The notes beneath the pieces were generated by a model that did not search any database, had not been told where the DNA came from, and saw only the letters and a list, made by a program, of their open reading frames with translations. A stretch of DNA of 48,458 nucleotides. It comes from Occallatibacter sp. (GTDB lineage Bacteria; Acidobacteriota; Terriglobia; Terriglobales; Acidobacteriaceae). Below, piece after piece: positions 23,426 through 30,275 of this stretch (position 1 is its first letter; every line of letters starts with the position of its first letter). The stretch covers positions 1-48,458 of the forward strand of contig JADGNO010000044.1 of the NCBI GenBank assembly GCA_017883405.1. The letters run 5' to 3'. The translations under genes were made by a program, and so were the position numbers.

Positions 23426-24301
23426 ATGACAAAAAAGAAGACGCCGGCAGCATCAGCGCCGAGTGAAAAAATTTCGGCGGCTACGTCGGCAACAGACGTC
23501 ACCCCGGAATTCACACCTTCCCAACCCGACGTGGAAGAAACTCCTTTTGAAGCGGTAGCCAGCATTTGCTCAGTGCTGGTAGTGGGACTGTTCATCCTCA
23601 CTTTTCTCGCGCAGAATTTTGTCATCCCCTCCGGTTCAATGGAAGACACGCTGCTGGTTGGCGATCACCTGGTTGTGGATCGCATTACGCTGGCGCCACC
23701 CGCCAAGTGGATGCCGCTCGTTCACTATCGCGAACCCAAGCGCGGTGACATTGTTGTATTCATCAAGCCGGTTCCCGATCCGGATCCAGTAACTGGAAAA
23801 CCCGACTATCTGTTCCTGGTGAAACGCCTGATCGGAGTTCCGGGCGACCACATCCATCTGCACGACGGCGTTGTCTACATCAACGGAGTGGCACAGACCG
23901 CGCCGAATGACGGCAAAGAAATGGCCGTGAGCCTGGAAGAAAAAGTTTTTCTCGACGAATTTCCTGCCGTCTCGCCTGTCCCTGAACCAGGCAATCTCAT
24001 TCCTGAAGAGTGGGCAGTCGATTTTCCGAACCACGTCAAAGACGGGGACCTGGTTGTGCCGGATGGCAACTACTTCATGATGGGCGATAACCGGCACAAC
24101 AGCGCCGACTCCCGCTTCTGGGGCTTTCTGCCCAGAGAAAACATCGTAGGCCGGCCGCTCTTCAACTACTGGTCGTTTAAAACTTCAGAAGATCAGTACG
24201 AGCAAACCGGAATCGGCAACACTGTTTCGTGGATGGCGCACGTGGCACTCCACTTCTTTTCTGACACGCGATGGTCGCGGACGTTCCACGTAGTGCGCTG
24301 A
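23426..24301 (+). CDS. lepB: Signal peptidase I (second of two)
   Basis: This is a 291-aa paralogue of the preceding gene. It has a longer, Lys/Ala/Thr-rich cytoplasmic N-terminus, then a transmembrane helix (SVLVVGLFILTFLAQNFVI). The catalytic S71 lies in PSGSMEDTLLVGD and the lysine K133 in FLVKRLIGVPGDHIHL. The conserved NYFMMGDNRHNSADSRFWGFLP is also present. All catalytic residues are kept, so both copies should be active. The start ATG at 23426 (MTKKKTPA) is preferred over a GTG at 23372. The two copies differ clearly in the middle domain, so this is an old duplication. Confidence 0.94.
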   Translation: MTKKKTPAASAPSEKISAATSATDVTPEFTPSQPDVEETPFEAVASICSVLVVGLFILTFLAQNFVIPSGSMEDTLLVGDHLVVDRITLAPPAKWMPLVHYREPKRGDIVVFIKPVPDPDPVTGKPDYLFLVKRLIGVPGDHIHLHDGVVYINGVAQTAPNDGKEMAVSLEEKVFLDEFPAVSPVPEPGNLIPEEWAVDFPNHVKDGDLVVPDGNYFMMGDNRHNSADSRFWGFLPRENIVGRPLFNYWSFKTSEDQYEQTGIGNTVSWMAHVALHFFSDTRWSRTFHVVR

Positions 24302-24333
24302 ACTTAACGCGAACACGGCATACTAAAGAGACA

Positions 24334-26982
24334 ATGACGGAAGAAGAGCAAGAGCGACGGCGGGCAAAGCCGAAATGGCTATGGTTTTCACTTGCCGCAG
24401 TCGTAGCTTTACTGGCCGTTATCATTGTGCCTCCGCTGGTGAGCGTAAGCCGATACAAGGGCCAGATTACAAGTCTGATCTCGCGCTCCCTTGGCCGCCC
24501 GGCAAGGCTTTCAGCGGTGCATGTGCGTTTGCTGCCTCGGCCCGCATTTGTTCTCTACGATCTGGTCGTCGATGACAATCCCGCCTTTGGCGCCGAGCCC
24601 GTAATTCACGCCAACTCCGTTACTGCGCCCATTCGTTTTTTGCCGCTCTGGCGCGGGCGGCTTGAGATCAGCGAGATCAGCGTTGACGAAGCCAGCCTGA
24701 ACCTGGTGCGCACGGCAGACGGCTTGTGGAATCTCGATTCGCTGCTGGAAGCAACCGCCACCAACGCCGGCAAGATGGCAGCAGACACGCGCCGAGCACC
24801 GTTTCCGCGACTGGTGGCAACCAACTCCCGCATCCACTTCAAGCGCGGCGTGGAAAAACTTCCCTTCTCGCTCATCGATGCCGATCTCTCCTTCTGGCAA
24901 TCAAAGCCCGGCGAGTGGCGTTTGAAACTGCGCGGTCAGCCGGCGCGAACCGACGTCAGCATCAACTCGGCCGACACCGGAATTGTTGAGATTGATGCCA
25001 CGGCTCAGCAGACCGCTGACCTGCGACAAATGCCGATTCATCTCGATCTCGATTGGCGCGATGCGCAGCTCGGACAGCTTACGCGGCTCATGACCGGCTC
25101 CGATGCCGGTTGGCGCGGCGATCTTCGCGGCGAAATGCACTTGGACGGCACCTCGGAGAACGCGCAGATCACAACCCGCCTTCGTGCCACCGGCGTTCAC
25201 CGTGCCGAGTTTGCGCCACCTGAGCCAATAGACTTCGACGCCAACTGCAGCCTTGTTTATCACTACACCCTGCGAACGGTTGAGAACATGGCATGTGATT
25301 CTCCGCTTGGCGATGGACGCATCCGGGTTACCGGTCAAATGAATGGCAACGGCCATTTGCCCAAGTACTCGGTCGAAATGGATCGTGTGCCGGTTGCAGC
25401 CGGACTTGAAGCGTTGCGCACGGTGCGAAGCGGCGTCGATCCGAATCTGACTGCGACCGGAGCCATCAGCGGCAAAGTGTCCTACGACGAAACGCCCGCG
25501 CCTGTTGAAACGCAGAAAAAGCCGGCCAACGTGGCGAGCCGCTCAAGGATTCGTTCCGCGAAAGCTGGTGCGGCTACCGCTGGTCCGCTCTCAGGCAGTT
25601 TCACAGTGGATGGTTTTCAATTAAACGGCGGTGGACTGAGCAAGCCTCTCGGCGCGGCAAAGGCGGTGATCGCGCCCACGGCTCTTGCGCCGGGGCATCC
25701 GCAGATACTTGCCGGCACCTTTGCGCTTAATGCAGGCGCGCCGGTTCCGCTAACCCTGGAATTGCGGTTTGCTTTCCGCAGCTACCATCTGACGGCGCGC
25801 GGTCAGGTAAGCGCGCAACGCGCCAAAGAAATTGCGCACGCAACCGGCTTGCCACAGGCTAATGCTCTCGACCAATTGGCAGGCGACTCGCTCGCCGTCG
25901 ACCTCAACGCGCAGGGACCTTGGATACCCCCTCACGATGAATTCGCCACCGAAAGCCAGCCTGCCATCGCCGCTGATGGAATTGTCCGCGGCATCGTCAG
26001 TACTACTGGAGTCGCCGATGTTGTCGATCCCGTCGCCGACAGTTTCACCGGAACAGTGACCCTGCACAACGCCAACTGGAAGGCGGATTATCTCGCCAAC
26101 CACGTTGAGATTTCAGACGCCACGCTGCATCTGCTCAACGGCGAGCTGCACTGGGAACCAATCGACTTTATCTACGGCCCGCTCAAAGGTACGGCGACGC
26201 TGACCGTGCCAAGGGCCTGCGAAACTCTCGACCCATGTCCGCTTCAACCGCTTCCCAGCTTCGACGTGCAATTCACTGATCTTGATGCGGCGGTTGTGCA
26301 GACGGCAATCCTTGGCGCGCATGAAAAGGGCACGCTCGTCTCCGATCTGCTCAAGCGCCTGCGCAATTCACCCGCGCCGTTGTTGCCGCAACTCGAAGGC
26401 ACCGTGACCGCCGACTCGCTCATTCTTGGACCGGTCACTGTCGAAAACGCGAAAGCTCAATTGAAAATTGCTCCGACGGGCATCGAGATCACCGCGCTCG
26501 ACGGAAAAATGCTTGGCGGCGGGTTGCATGCCACCGGCGCCCTCGTCACAGGCGACAAGCCCGACTACACCATCACCGCGGTTCTCCAAAATCTGAATCC
26601 CACCGCCGTTGGCCAGCTGATTGGTCAGAACTGGCGCGGCGGTACTCTCGACGCCAACGGCAATGTGGAACTGGCGGGCTACACCGGCAGCGATCTCGCA
26701 AGCTCAGCCAAAGGCACGTTGCACTTTGAATGGCGCAACGGTGCGGCCTCCGGCGCAGGTTCGCCGCCGGAACTGGATCACTTTGATCGCTGGAACGCGG
26801 ATGCGGAAATCGCCGACGGCAAAGTGACATTCGGCAAAAATGAACTGGCACAGGGAAGCCATAAGCGCGCCATCGCCGCCGCCGTTGTGCTGGCAGAGCA
26901 ATCAAAGTCGATCTTCGGCTCTCAAGTTACGCCGCCGTCGCCCAAACCCGTGCAAACCAATAGACAGCGCCCGCCCCGCTAG
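24334..26982 (+). CDS. AsmA-family envelope protein
   Basis: This protein of about 882 aa has a short cytoplasmic tail, one N-terminal transmembrane helix (WLWFSLAAVVALLAVIIVPPL) and a long periplasmic part. The AsmA N-terminal signature is present: LISRSLGRPARLSAVHVRLLPRPAFVLYDLVV, then EISEISVDEASLNLVRTADGLWNLDSLL. The rest is repetitive beta-rich sequence with a basic, Ala-rich interruption near 395-430. AsmA-like proteins (YhdP, TamB, YicH classes) are thought to bridge the envelope and move phospholipids to the outer membrane. The start MTEEEQERRRAKP at 24334 follows AAAGAG. It lies 32 bp after lepB and 9 bp before the HAD gene, so it is probably in the same operon. Confidence 0.88.
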   Translation: MTEEEQERRRAKPKWLWFSLAAVVALLAVIIVPPLVSVSRYKGQITSLISRSLGRPARLSAVHVRLLPRPAFVLYDLVVDDNPAFGAEPVIHANSVTAPIRFLPLWRGRLEISEISVDEASLNLVRTADGLWNLDSLLEATATNAGKMAADTRRAPFPRLVATNSRIHFKRGVEKLPFSLIDADLSFWQSKPGEWRLKLRGQPARTDVSINSADTGIVEIDATAQQTADLRQMPIHLDLDWRDAQLGQLTRLMTGSDAGWRGDLRGEMHLDGTSENAQITTRLRATGVHRAEFAPPEPIDFDANCSLVYHYTLRTVENMACDSPLGDGRIRVTGQMNGNGHLPKYSVEMDRVPVAAGLEALRTVRSGVDPNLTATGAISGKVSYDETPAPVETQKKPANVASRSRIRSAKAGAATAGPLSGSFTVDGFQLNGGGLSKPLGAAKAVIAPTALAPGHPQILAGTFALNAGAPVPLTLELRFAFRSYHLTARGQVSAQRAKEIAHATGLPQANALDQLAGDSLAVDLNAQGPWIPPHDEFATESQPAIAADGIVRGIVSTTGVADVVDPVADSFTGTVTLHNANWKADYLANHVEISDATLHLLNGELHWEPIDFIYGPLKGTATLTVPRACETLDPCPLQPLPSFDVQFTDLDAAVVQTAILGAHEKGTLVSDLLKRLRNSPAPLLPQLEGTVTADSLILGPVTVENAKAQLKIAPTGIEITALDGKMLGGGLHATGALVTGDKPDYTITAVLQNLNPTAVGQLIGQNWRGGTLDANGNVELAGYTGSDLASSAKGTLHFEWRNGAASGAGSPPELDHFDRWNADAEIADGKVTFGKNELAQGSHKRAIAAAVVLAEQSKSIFGSQVTPPSPKPVQTNRQRPPR

Positions 26983-26991
26983 AATCAGGCT

Positions 26992-27678
26992 ATGGATTTC
27001 CCCTACCGCTCGATGGTTCAAATCCAATGCAAAGGCGTCCTGTTCGATATGGACGGCATTCTCGTGTCGTCGCTCGGATCGGTGGAGCGCAGTTGGTCAA
27101 AATGGGCTGAGCTGCGCGGCGTCAACCCAGACCTTACGTGCCGGACCGCGCACGGACGACGCGCCATCGAAACGGTCGCCATCATGCGGCCCGATCTCGA
27201 CGCCGAGCAGGAACTCAAGGTCATTGAAGATATTGAGGTCGAGGACAACGAAGGGCTGACCGTGCTGCCCGGGGTTCTGGCTATGCTCTCAGCGCTGCCC
27301 GCCGACCGCTGGACGGTGGTGACCAGCGCAACCGAGCGCCTTGCGCGCGTGCGCATGGGCGTGGGCGGAGTGCCGCTGCCGCAAAAACTCGTGGCCGCCG
27401 ATTTCGTCACGCGCGGCAAGCCGCATCCTGAGCCATTCCTCACCGGAGCGGCACTGCTTGGTTTCGAACCAAAGGACTGCGTAGTTTTTGAAGATTCCGC
27501 GTCTGGCGCCAAGGCCGGCCGCGCCGCCGGATGTGCGGTGGTAGCGACAACGTTCTCGCATCCAGTGGAGTCGCTCGACGCAGCGCACCACCTGGTGCAA
27601 GATCTCACCGGCATGAACGTGACAGTGCTGCCCGACGATAAAGGGCTGCTGTTGAGCTTTATTCCTCTGGTTAGCTGA
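26992..27678 (+). CDS. HAD-superfamily sugar-phosphatase-like hydrolase
   Basis: This 228-aa phosphatase is of HAD subfamily IA. Motif I is VLFDMDGILVSS (nucleophile and acid Asp at D-x-D), motif II is VVTSAT, motif III lysine is in TRGKPHPEPF, and motif IV is VVFEDSASGAKAGRAAG. An alpha-helical cap lies between motifs I and II. The ERSWSKWAELRG segment after motif I resembles HxpA/YfbT and yeast glycerol-3-phosphatase, which dephosphorylate small sugar or polyol phosphates; the actual substrate is unknown. The start at 26992 is 9 bp after the AsmA-like stop; an ATG at 27013 would trim seven residues. Confidence 0.88.
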   Translation: MDFPYRSMVQIQCKGVLFDMDGILVSSLGSVERSWSKWAELRGVNPDLTCRTAHGRRAIETVAIMRPDLDAEQELKVIEDIEVEDNEGLTVLPGVLAMLSALPADRWTVVTSATERLARVRMGVGGVPLPQKLVAADFVTRGKPHPEPFLTGAALLGFEPKDCVVFEDSASGAKAGRAAGCAVVATTFSHPVESLDAAHHLVQDLTGMNVTVLPDDKGLLLSFIPLVS

Positions 27679-27737: not shown

Positions 27738-29495
27738 TTACTTCGTCCCAACCAGGTCCTGGCTAACTTTGTAGCTGCCAGGTTTTCCGGTAACCGCAAT
27801 CGGAATCACTGCGCCGGCTTTCCGCTTTTTGAAAAAAGGGATCAACGGCTTCAGAAGAATCGATTTGAATCCGGTAGCGGCATGGGATACATCGGACTGC
27901 ATTTTCAAGTCACCGACCAGGCGCACGGATCCATCGCGCAAATTGAATGTACCGTGCAGGTCCACAGAAGAGCCGGGAATATTAAATTCTATGTGCCTGG
28001 TCGTGATGCTCCCCTTTTCAATCCTGGCGATCCCCTTCAAAGACGAAATAACATCAGCTTTATCCGGTTGGGCTGCATCGCCTGGCGGAGAACCCGTCAC
28101 AGGTTCAGCTTTGAAAGGCTGACCTTTTTGCGCGCGCTCACTGAAAGCCGAAAGCTCCCGTTCGGTCCTCGGGTTAGTCAGGTGCTCCGCGGGTACGTCA
28201 AAGGACCCCTCCACGTGCAGACGATCGAGAAAGTGAACGCCATGACCTGCAGGATCGACGTGGGCATGGCTCTTGAGCCGGACGGTGCCTGCAATCGGAG
28301 AGTCGGCGTGAAGAAAGGGTCGCAGTATATCCTGTGCGCGGCCTGCGGAAACGTCGATGTCTACATCGATGACCTTGGGAGAGCCGACAACTCCCCCCTT
28401 CATAAAGATGGCCGTCGATCCGAACTTTACATCAATTGCGTCGAGCAGCACATCGCCGCTAAGCCCGTTTATGGTGCAACGCGCGGACGTTGTTTCCGGC
28501 GTGGGCTGGCCACGGCCCACGGAGAAATCAGGTGTAACCGTTGAAGCCTCTGCTTGAATCTGCGCCAGGTTGCCATGGAAATTCCCCTGCGACGACAGCG
28601 TACCTCCGATGTCGCCAATGTCGTGCAAATCTACATTTTCAAATGTGAAATGTCCCGACAACGGGGTGGCGCCAAGATTCCGCGGATCTATTGGGCCGAA
28701 ACTGCCTTGAGAAATAATGTGCCCTCGAGGCCTGGCGTTACCCATGTTGACGAAATAGGAAAGCGTGCGCCCTTTCTGCAAATCGCGAATAGTAAGCAAC
28801 CGGACGGGAAAAGAATAAATGCCGCCTTCGGCGCGAGTCACGTCCAACGTGGACTCGTGAATGCGCAATTGATCAATAAGCGTGTCCGGACCGATGAAAC
28901 TTGAACTGCTACCGGCGGGGAAATCCTTTTTATTGGCTGCGCTCCCCTCCGCTGGAATGATGAGGTGCAATCCTGTTATGTCTACCTGCCGCGTCTCTTC
29001 GCGCAACATCAGCAGATCGAGCCAGCTTCCTTGCACAAAGATGCTTCGGATGGTCCCCAATGGGGGAACGCCGGGAGTGGGGTTTCGGTCCAATGTGATA
29101 TCTGTGGCCATAAACCCAGGATTGGGAAAGTAGGTGCGGTGATAATGCGCGATGGTGACTTTGCCGCCAAGTACTTCTTCTAGCATTGGTTTGATGATGC
29201 GATATCGATAGGGCCAGTACGCGTTCGCAAATACGATAACCACAGCAATTAATAGAGCCACAAGCGCGCCTACCAGGAGCCAGATCCTGGCATGCTCCGA
29301 CCTTTTCTTGAAGATTGGTGACACAGGGGCGGAGGCGGAATTCGTCACAGGCTTGTCCCGGTGAAGCAAATTCAGAAAAAGCAGCACGTGCTTCAACGGT
29401 TTGGGATGCGTCGGAGCGCCCGGCCGCTGTATGGGACCTTGCAGGAATCGTTTTCCACGCTCGCCAACATTTGCCAGAGTCAGGACTGGCGCCAT
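27738..29495 (-). CDS. AsmA-like periplasmic protein (second in window)
   Basis: The frame gives 585 aa with a transmembrane helix at about residues 72-95 (IWLLVGALVALLIAVVIVFANAYW). AsmA-type features follow: MLEEVLGGKVTIAHYHRTYF, MATDITLDRNP and SWLDLLMLREETRQVDITGLHLIIP, then a beta-rich repeat region to the C-terminus. The first 50-odd residues are weakly supported; a start nearer 29350, a few residues before the helix, is possible since no ribosome site precedes the ATG at 29495. It probably acts in lipid or envelope homeostasis. It lies 33 bp downstream of the carbonic-anhydrase-like gene in the same direction and is convergent to the HAD gene. Confidence 0.8.
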   Translation of the reverse strand: MAPVLTLANVGERGKRFLQGPIQRPGAPTHPKPLKHVLLFLNLLHRDKPVTNSASAPVSPIFKKRSEHARIWLLVGALVALLIAVVIVFANAYWPYRYRIIKPMLEEVLGGKVTIAHYHRTYFPNPGFMATDITLDRNPTPGVPPLGTIRSIFVQGSWLDLLMLREETRQVDITGLHLIIPAEGSAANKKDFPAGSSSSFIGPDTLIDQLRIHESTLDVTRAEGGIYSFPVRLLTIRDLQKGRTLSYFVNMGNARPRGHIISQGSFGPIDPRNLGATPLSGHFTFENVDLHDIGDIGGTLSSQGNFHGNLAQIQAEASTVTPDFSVGRGQPTPETTSARCTINGLSGDVLLDAIDVKFGSTAIFMKGGVVGSPKVIDVDIDVSAGRAQDILRPFLHADSPIAGTVRLKSHAHVDPAGHGVHFLDRLHVEGSFDVPAEHLTNPRTERELSAFSERAQKGQPFKAEPVTGSPPGDAAQPDKADVISSLKGIARIEKGSITTRHIEFNIPGSSVDLHGTFNLRDGSVRLVGDLKMQSDVSHAATGFKSILLKPLIPFFKKRKAGAVIPIAVTGKPGSYKVSQDLVGTK

Positions 29496-29528: not shown

Positions 29529-30275
29529 TTACTGGTTCGCCTCAATCTCGCGGCCGTGCGCGTCCTGCAGCGGACGCGTGTTCATGCGGAACATTGCACC
29601 GTAGGTTCTGAGCTGCGTGCGGCTCAGCGTCACCGGCTGCTGAAACACATACCAGCGCACGCCTTCCGTGCAAGGCGGCGTTGTCAGAGAACCCATGTAG
29701 GTCCAGTAGGCGCGATCAGCGGGTAGAAAGCCGCCTGGATTCACAAGATCAGCAATCTTCACCGTGTCGCCGGACTTCCTGGGCAACTGCGAGAACAGCG
29801 TCGCCAACGCAGCGTTGGGCGCGTCCTGATTCTCAGCCAGCCGCACAGCCACAATCGCCATCTGTCCATCGGCGCTCTTGTGCAGGAACTGCACGCTCAT
29901 ATCGGTGAGCTTGCCCTTTACCGCTTCCTCGCTGGGCGTACGAAGCTCGTATTGCACCAGGTTGTAGCGAGTTCCACCGGCCACCATGTAGCTGCCCGGG
30001 TTCACATGAACAACAATGGTGCGACCGTTGTTCTCGACCGTCTCAGTTCCAGCCAGGTAATGAAATTCAATCGGCTGCAGAGACTTGTTCAGATGCACGC
30101 CGCGAATGTCCAGCGGCGACTGCTCATGCCCGTTCGAGCAGGCCTTATACGACGGGTCGAGCTTGCCCCAGCCCAGCGGGCCGGTCTTGCCAAAGTAGTT
30201 CCAGTTTGCGGCCGTCTGTGCGGTCGACAGGCTGGCAAAACAGGTGAGGGCAACTGCAACTATAGGAAAACGCAT
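29529..30275 (-). CDS. Secreted alpha-carbonic-anhydrase-fold protein lacking the zinc-binding histidines
   Basis: The product is 248 aa, with a signal peptide (FPIVAVALTCFASLSTAQ) and then the alpha-carbonic-anhydrase fold. Fold landmarks are present: NWNYFGKTGPLGWGKL, CSNGHEQSPLDI, NNGRTIVVHV, VQYELRTPSEEAVKGK, MSVQFLHKSADG and SLTTPPCTEGVRWYV. In catalytic members the motifs read NNGHT, QFHFH.PSE and ELHLVH. By that alignment the shuttle His64 is R85, zinc ligands His94, His96 and His119 are E110, R112 and Q129, while the Thr199 segment (LTTPPC) is kept. It is therefore unlikely to hydrate CO2 and may be a binding or structural protein. AGGAGC just before the ATG sets the start. Confidence 0.88.
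   Translation of the reverse strand: MRFPIVAVALTCFASLSTAQTAANWNYFGKTGPLGWGKLDPSYKACSNGHEQSPLDIRGVHLNKSLQPIEFHYLAGTETVENNGRTIVVHVNPGSYMVAGGTRYNLVQYELRTPSEEAVKGKLTDMSVQFLHKSADGQMAIVAVRLAENQDAPNAALATLFSQLPRKSGDTVKIADLVNPGGFLPADRAYWTYMGSLTTPPCTEGVRWYVFQQPVTLSRTQLRTYGAMFRMNTRPLQDAHGREIEANQ

Follow-up and report, generated by a model that had tools for sequence, protein, structure and literature searches.

The locus and its product

We analyzed a 48,458-nucleotide stretch of DNA from an Occallatibacter sp. (contig JADGNO010000044.1; hereafter the window), in which a gene at 29529-30275 on the minus strand encodes a 248-residue homolog of alpha-carbonic anhydrase (alpha-CA). The product is predicted to be exported, has Glu-Arg-Gln (ERQ) at the positions of the three zinc ligands, and has Arg at the position of the proton shuttle His64. 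A first-pass annotation of this DNA had described an intact gene for a carbonic anhydrase fold in which the ligands and the shuttle are all replaced, and our analysis agrees. The frame from 30275 to 29529 translates into 248 residues with zero internal stops, AGGAG lies six bases 5' of the ATG, and the fold landmarks recognized earlier (QSPLDI, PSEE, and LTTPPCTEG) are all found in the translation. By inspection, residues 1-20 (MRFPIVAVALTCFASLSTAQ; 30216-30275, minus strand) resemble a signal peptide.

The family assignment is clear from both profile and model. The protein scores 113.7 bits against PF00194 (E-value 1.4e-32; the cut-off is 27 bits), and its best match by sequence among solved structures is 6im0 from Persephonella (E-value 5.4e-49, 170 bits). 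An AlphaFold2 model built from a 27-row alignment has a mean pLDDT of 82.8 and a pTM of 0.81, with residues 4-32 below 50. This model adopts the alpha-CA fold that had been claimed from motifs: VIA-align superimposes it on 8w7x_A with Z 31.8 (rmsd 2.2 over 221 residues) and on 6im0_A with Z 31.7. Foldseek ranks bacterial alpha-CAs first (8w7x, E-value 6.3e-27), with a TM to target of 0.86-0.92 for the best 13 rows. In the window genome (3.8 Mb in 340 contigs, 78% complete), the window protein is the only PF00194 match.

A gene for a 585-residue protein (27738-29495, minus strand) follows the CA gene on the same strand after a gap of 33 bases. Beyond it are two genes convergent to the CA gene, encoding a HAD hydrolase (26992-27678, plus strand) and an AsmA-family protein (24271-26982, plus strand; identified by profile match and locus comparison). 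We considered the 585-residue protein, which has no Pfam or NCBIfam match, as a partner and rejected it: its gene is present at the window locus alone among the loci compared, and its listed homologs are encoded on other stretches. These homologs reach 56% identity and occur elsewhere in the genus.

We next turn to the zinc site itself. In a HMMER alignment to 6im0, the motifs NNGHT, QFHFH, and EAHFVH stand opposite NNGRT, QYELR, and SVQFLH in the window protein. The alignment places Arg85 (codon CGC, 30021-30023) at the position of His64, Glu110 (GAG, 29946-29948) at that of His94, Arg112 (CGT, 29940-29942) at that of His96, and Gln129 (CAG, 29889-29891) at that of His119, with all four codons on the minus strand. 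These numbers follow the human CA II (hCA II) numbering, transferred through the alignment. Every letter that we checked agrees with the four substitutions as first reported. Arg112 is unlikely to be a base error because the protein that pairs with the window protein in the tree, L072, comes from another genome and also has Arg at this position. With E110, R112, and Q129, the protein lacks the three-histidine ligand set of alpha-CA enzymes. It does combine alpha-CA homology with the loss of at least one zinc histidine, as carbonic anhydrase-related proteins (CARPs) do, and as Glu-Arg-Gln it falls outside the His-His-Gln definition of the eta class.

Triad variants among relatives

To place these substitutions in context, we surveyed homologs in 398 genomes drawn from the family of the window, its own genome included, of which 107 have a match to the window protein. 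The resulting alignment contains 111 distinct proteins, counting the window protein and merging those identical over the last 180 residues. Extraction skipped rows with an internal stop or with fewer than 200 residues, and the sole row skipped is partial and stop-free. Outside the alignment are L056 (left out as partial; its visible ligands are Asp-His-Gln), pieces in G348, G357, and G061, one of two hits in G266, and weak hits in G392, G276, G381, G227, G087, G240, and G152, of which the G276 hit is His-His-His (HHH). Some of the loci come from named species, among them Occallatibacter savannae (EHE in the cultured strain AB23), Terracidiphilus gabretensis (HHH in the cultured strain S55), and Acidicapsa dinghuensis; NCBI taxonomy places Terracidiphilus under Occallatibacter in the family Acidobacteriaceae.

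We defined a clade of 75 acidobacterial proteins by a cut at 45.5% identity to the window protein, which coincides with a fork of support 100/99. Within it the triad is HHH in 19 proteins and changed in 56, with 20 different changed triads (EHD in nine, DHD in eight, HHQ in seven, EHE and DHQ in six each, HHD and DHH in two each, and others). The number of ligands changed among the 56 triad-lost rows is one in 11, two in 42, and three in 3. Most of these relatives keep His96 (52/56) and have His94 and/or His119 replaced, mostly by Asp, Glu, or Gln. The first-pass annotation had called for a survey of relatives for the same four substitutions; 3 of the 75 clade members carry changes at His64 as well as at all three ligands, namely the window protein (ERQ, with R at position 64), L029, and L031 (QRD, with G). 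The window protein is one end of a graded series of triad variants.

Outside the clade the picture is different. Among 36 remoter homologs (34 from the family, L063 from another family of the class, and L058 from a proteobacterial record), 33 are HHH and three, all within the family, are HRQ, RRQ, and RKQ. We also drew 297 genomes from the phylum, which gave 27 loci; of the 23 outside the family, 22 are HHH (one of them a partial gene) and one is HRQ. Frequent triad loss is therefore characteristic of the window's clade, plus a second, remote case. This second set of alpha-CA homologs, with HRQ, RRQ, RKQ, and HRQ triads (L134, L135, L139, and L168), is spread over further genera of the family and a single different family of the phylum.

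Several individual variants resemble sites known from elsewhere. The seven HHQ homologs (L097, L102, L103, L105, L107, L108, and L008) share their ligands with the Plasmodium eta class, and L104 and L106, close relatives of some of them, are HHH. L017 and L020 have Asp-His-His triads and so are natural counterparts of the engineered His2Asp site of human CA II (1cvc), which has the H94D substitution. H72 of the window protein (30060-30062, minus strand) is His in 72 of the 75 clade members, whether the triad is intact or lost, and the same position outside the clade is Glu or Asp in 24 of 35 intact proteins.

We asked whether the window protein could persist as a weak carbonic anhydrase that works through an altered or displaced metal site. 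Relatives with one ligand changed may well be active, as are Plasmodium eta-CA with its His-His-Gln set and the His94-to-Asn form of human CA II, in which activity is reduced and still present (PMC5437132), and the HHQ, HHD, and DHH members of the clade are of this kind. Against this, the window protein is without all three ligands, and Arg112 puts a positive group at the would-be metal position. In addition, none of its six histidines is new relative to intact clade members, where H132 and H72 are both His in 19/19 rows, H240 in 17/19, H61 in 12/19, H50 in 9/19, and H90 in 4/19. The displaced triad through H90 and H132 that the first-pass annotation had raised against its own reading is therefore unsupported, since both histidines already occur in intact relatives; H90 is commoner among triad-lost rows (25/56) than among intact ones. 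We consider residual catalysis of this kind improbable for the window protein.

The triad has been lost more than once

To count the losses, we built a tree with the four site columns blanked, using 8 of the 38 rows outside the clade (the 36 homologs and two solved references); the bootstrap of the best tree is not quite settled. The best tree has 10 changes between intact and lost states by Fitch counting, or 14 losses if regain is barred. A single loss across the whole clade is ruled out by the AU test, which rejects all 56 triad-lost rows as one clade (p = 4e-49), demonstrating more than one loss over the clade. The same test does not reject the 47 triad-lost rows of the genus cluster as one clade (p = 0.153). 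Accordingly, many apparent losses in this cluster sit on weakly supported branches, several losses within it are possible only, and 10 and 14 are upper-end figures. The window protein pairs with L072 (ERH) with support 85/84, which is not a starred branch. Its nearest relative is at best 68% identical and it has no close sister, so constraint on its branch is estimated only from comparisons that are nearly saturated.

The genes around the CA gene indicate where these losses took place. Both the HAD hydrolase and AsmA genes are convergent to the CA gene in 11 of 18 intact rows and 37 of 56 triad-lost rows, window included, counting rows with at least 900 bases downstream (many flanks extend just ~1500 bases); in g60-type rows both neighbors are absent throughout. 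These shared downstream neighbors indicate that triad loss often affected the gene at the orthologous locus itself and not a spare copy. The HAD hydrolase gene, found in many relatives, is a marker of this locus rather than a proven partner. We did not find an operon partner, as the only genes common across loci are the convergent downstream ones, and no gene upstream of the CA gene in the window was found in common with relatives at a like place.

Duplication with a spare active copy was also considered and rejected: among 34 genomes with a match, the window's own included, two copies occur in only one (G014). The two copies in G014 are L022, an EHE member of the clade, and L062, a remote HHH protein. 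Of 80 genomes of the genus, 72 have a beta-CA; the window genome is one of these, so CO2 hydration there need not depend on the window protein. Four genomes that are at least 96% complete (G011, G026, G033, and G391) have no beta-CA match. The sole alpha-CA homologs seen in them are L003 (DHQ), L021 (DHQ), L011 (NHQ), and L096 (DHD), respectively. In these four, either no alpha- or beta-CA works or such triads still function.

Selection on triad-lost proteins

Purifying selection acts on triad-lost proteins to about the same degree as on intact ones. Among the listed 60 pairs of greatest similarity, dN/dS is 0.049-0.31 where both members have lost the triad (one pair is without a dS value) and 0.070-0.293 where both are intact. 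Values for the window protein against eight relatives (NG86) are 0.147-0.274, and rough because dS is 0.9-1.5, near saturation. Maintenance by selection, as expected of a CARP, is therefore seen both for the triad-lost pairs and, with this limit, for the window protein. In the comparison with L072, differences at codon positions 1, 2, and 3 number 51, 30, and 115 over 227 codons. Glu106 and both cysteines are kept in 56/56 triad-lost rows, and 52 of these rows, window included, have N-termini that satisfy a crude signal-peptide rule. Apart from the triad and position 64, the window protein breaks only two columns with a conservation of 95% or more among other clade members (F111L and W161F), compared to 0-4 such columns in triad-lost rows and 0-2 in intact rows.

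These data bear on whether the gene is in early decay and open by chance. Many of the 398 family genomes are without a match and the triads differ widely, as might be expected of a gene on its way out. However, dN/dS is well below 1 for triad-lost pairs and for the window protein, the one row skipped at extraction has no stop, and the window protein departs from just two conserved columns. The earlier statement that this is not a decayed gene therefore holds, and we give decay very little credence.

The extra variability of triad-lost rows is concentrated in the cavity. At 16 cavity positions (triad and position 64 excluded), the mean entropy gain is 0.705, compared to 0.215 elsewhere (permutation p = 4e-4). 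The group sizes, 56 versus 19, raise entropy everywhere, and for this reason the comparison is made against other columns. The cavity positions are those of hCA II, mapped by hand. Thus, the gene has been maintained for a folded product, with requirements on the catalytic machinery relaxed.

The cavity does not vary freely, as residues at position 119 are limited to a few kinds. In the 53 rows changed there, the replacement is Asp in 24, Gln in 20, and Glu in 9, and never Asn, Tyr, Arg, Leu, or Pro, all of which also arise from His codons by one-step mutation. Asp or Gln is expected in 0.21-0.375 of one-step amino-acid changes, and the probability that all changes at 119 go to Asp or Gln is 0.0005-0.007 for five independent events and at most 8e-6 for twelve. 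These values come from simple arithmetic with Glu treated as a second step; twelve is the Fitch count for this position, five is our own low count, and the AU result makes five the safer number. At position 94, 33 of 47 changed rows have Asp or Glu, and the rest have Ser (4), Thr (4), Gln (3), Asn (2), or Ala (1). The four triad-lost rows without His96 all have Arg in its place. Either folding demands a pocket that is both polar and acidic, or something is still bound there.

This restriction is the main reason to keep the leading alternative explanation alive, in which the site was rebuilt rather than abandoned. Under this explanation, which we hold as possible but well short of probable, the His3-zinc site became a carboxylate-rich site for another metal, ligand, or reaction, as in plant CA-like proteins (CALs). 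The proposed site has Asp or Glu at 94, His or Arg at 96, and Asp, Glu, or Gln at 119, and Arg112 would replace the metal in the window protein. The replacements at 94 and 119, the choice of His or Arg at 96, and the invariant Glu106 would all fit. There is also precedent, since plant CALs make alkaloid precursors despite replaced triad histidines (PMC10700139) and, by its structure title, a human CA II engineered to carry a His2Asp zinc site has been solved (1cvc). On the other side, no substrate, gene cluster, or common new motif accompanies the variants, and the variety of triads among related genomes suggests loosened requirements more than a single new chemistry.

Proposed function and comparison with known proteins

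We lean toward reading the window protein as an exported pseudo-carbonic anhydrase, free of zinc and kept for binding or for the role of a rebuilt cavity, a bacterial counterpart of animal CARPs. The protein would be exported, probably to the periplasm, and would keep the alpha-CA fold without a His3-bound zinc and without CO2 hydration at a useful rate. The empty cavity may be maintained as a polar pocket, in which Glu110, Arg112, and Gln129 probably form a network of charges, salt bridges, and hydrogen bonds in the former place of the zinc, with Arg112 providing a positive charge. Its function would then be to bind a small anion, a cell-envelope ligand, or a partner protein, and not CO2 chemistry. 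Against this reading, the restricted residues at position 119 would fit a rebuilt metal or catalytic site as well, and the shared neighbors indicate no partner or ligand.

Zinc-less relatives of alpha-CA have been described from animals, viruses, an apicomplexan, and plants, and what is new here is the CARP idea in bacteria together with natural intermediates. In the open-access titles and openings of abstracts that were searched, a scope that takes in little of the subscription literature, no zinc-less alpha-CA relative from a bacterium is named. Related genomes carry intact forms alongside those with one, two, or three ligands changed, in many cases at one and the same locus, which makes the passage from a metalloenzyme to a non-enzyme or to another enzyme testable with natural intermediates. 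More speculatively, and with confidence clearly below that in our preferred reading, one Acidobacteria family may have repeatedly converted an exported His3-zinc alpha-CA into a protein whose carboxylate-His cavity has a new function, with an arginine taking the place of the metal in the window lineage to give a metal-free, cation-centered pocket. If true, the natural variants would mark successive steps from enzyme to post-enzyme protein. These proteins also carry a warning for annotation, as the window protein clears the Pfam cut-off by a wide margin despite the replaced zinc site.

Comparison with characterized proteins shows which features are shared. Bacterial alpha-CAs (PF00194; for example 6im0, 8w7x, and 1kop from Neisseria) have the fold, Glu106, the LTTPPC region, and two cysteines in common with the window protein, in which the three zinc ligands and the His64 shuttle are replaced. 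The CARPs (VIII, X, and XI, and TgCA_RP of Toxoplasma) resemble it in combining the alpha-CA fold with loss of at least one zinc histidine and are presumed to be non-catalytic; they are described from animals, viruses, and an apicomplexan, Toxoplasma having TgCA_RP (PMC5437132). Human CARPs work without catalysis and are described as retaining His64 (PMC6609565), whereas the window protein does not retain it and has all three ligands replaced. In plants, PtCAL-1 and PtCAL-2 are secreted proteins that, like the window protein, combine the alpha-CA fold with replacements in the triad, here of two or three histidines. They have a demonstrated, mutually dependent activity in alkaloid synthesis, which by that account a zinc chelator did not reduce (PMC10700139), whereas the window protein is not known to have such an activity. 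Plasmodium eta-CA uses Gln as third ligand, as found at this position in the window protein and 19 other triad-lost clade members, but it keeps the first two histidines (PMC5437132), both of which are replaced in the window protein. For human CA II, zinc binding by ligand mutants is discussed with Metal3D (PMC10175565), and the structure title of 4jsw gives a solved engineered H94C site. Finally, dioscorin (4twl) has the alpha-CA fold and is a close structural match to the window model (Z 28.9) but, unlike the window protein, is a storage protein of the yam tuber.
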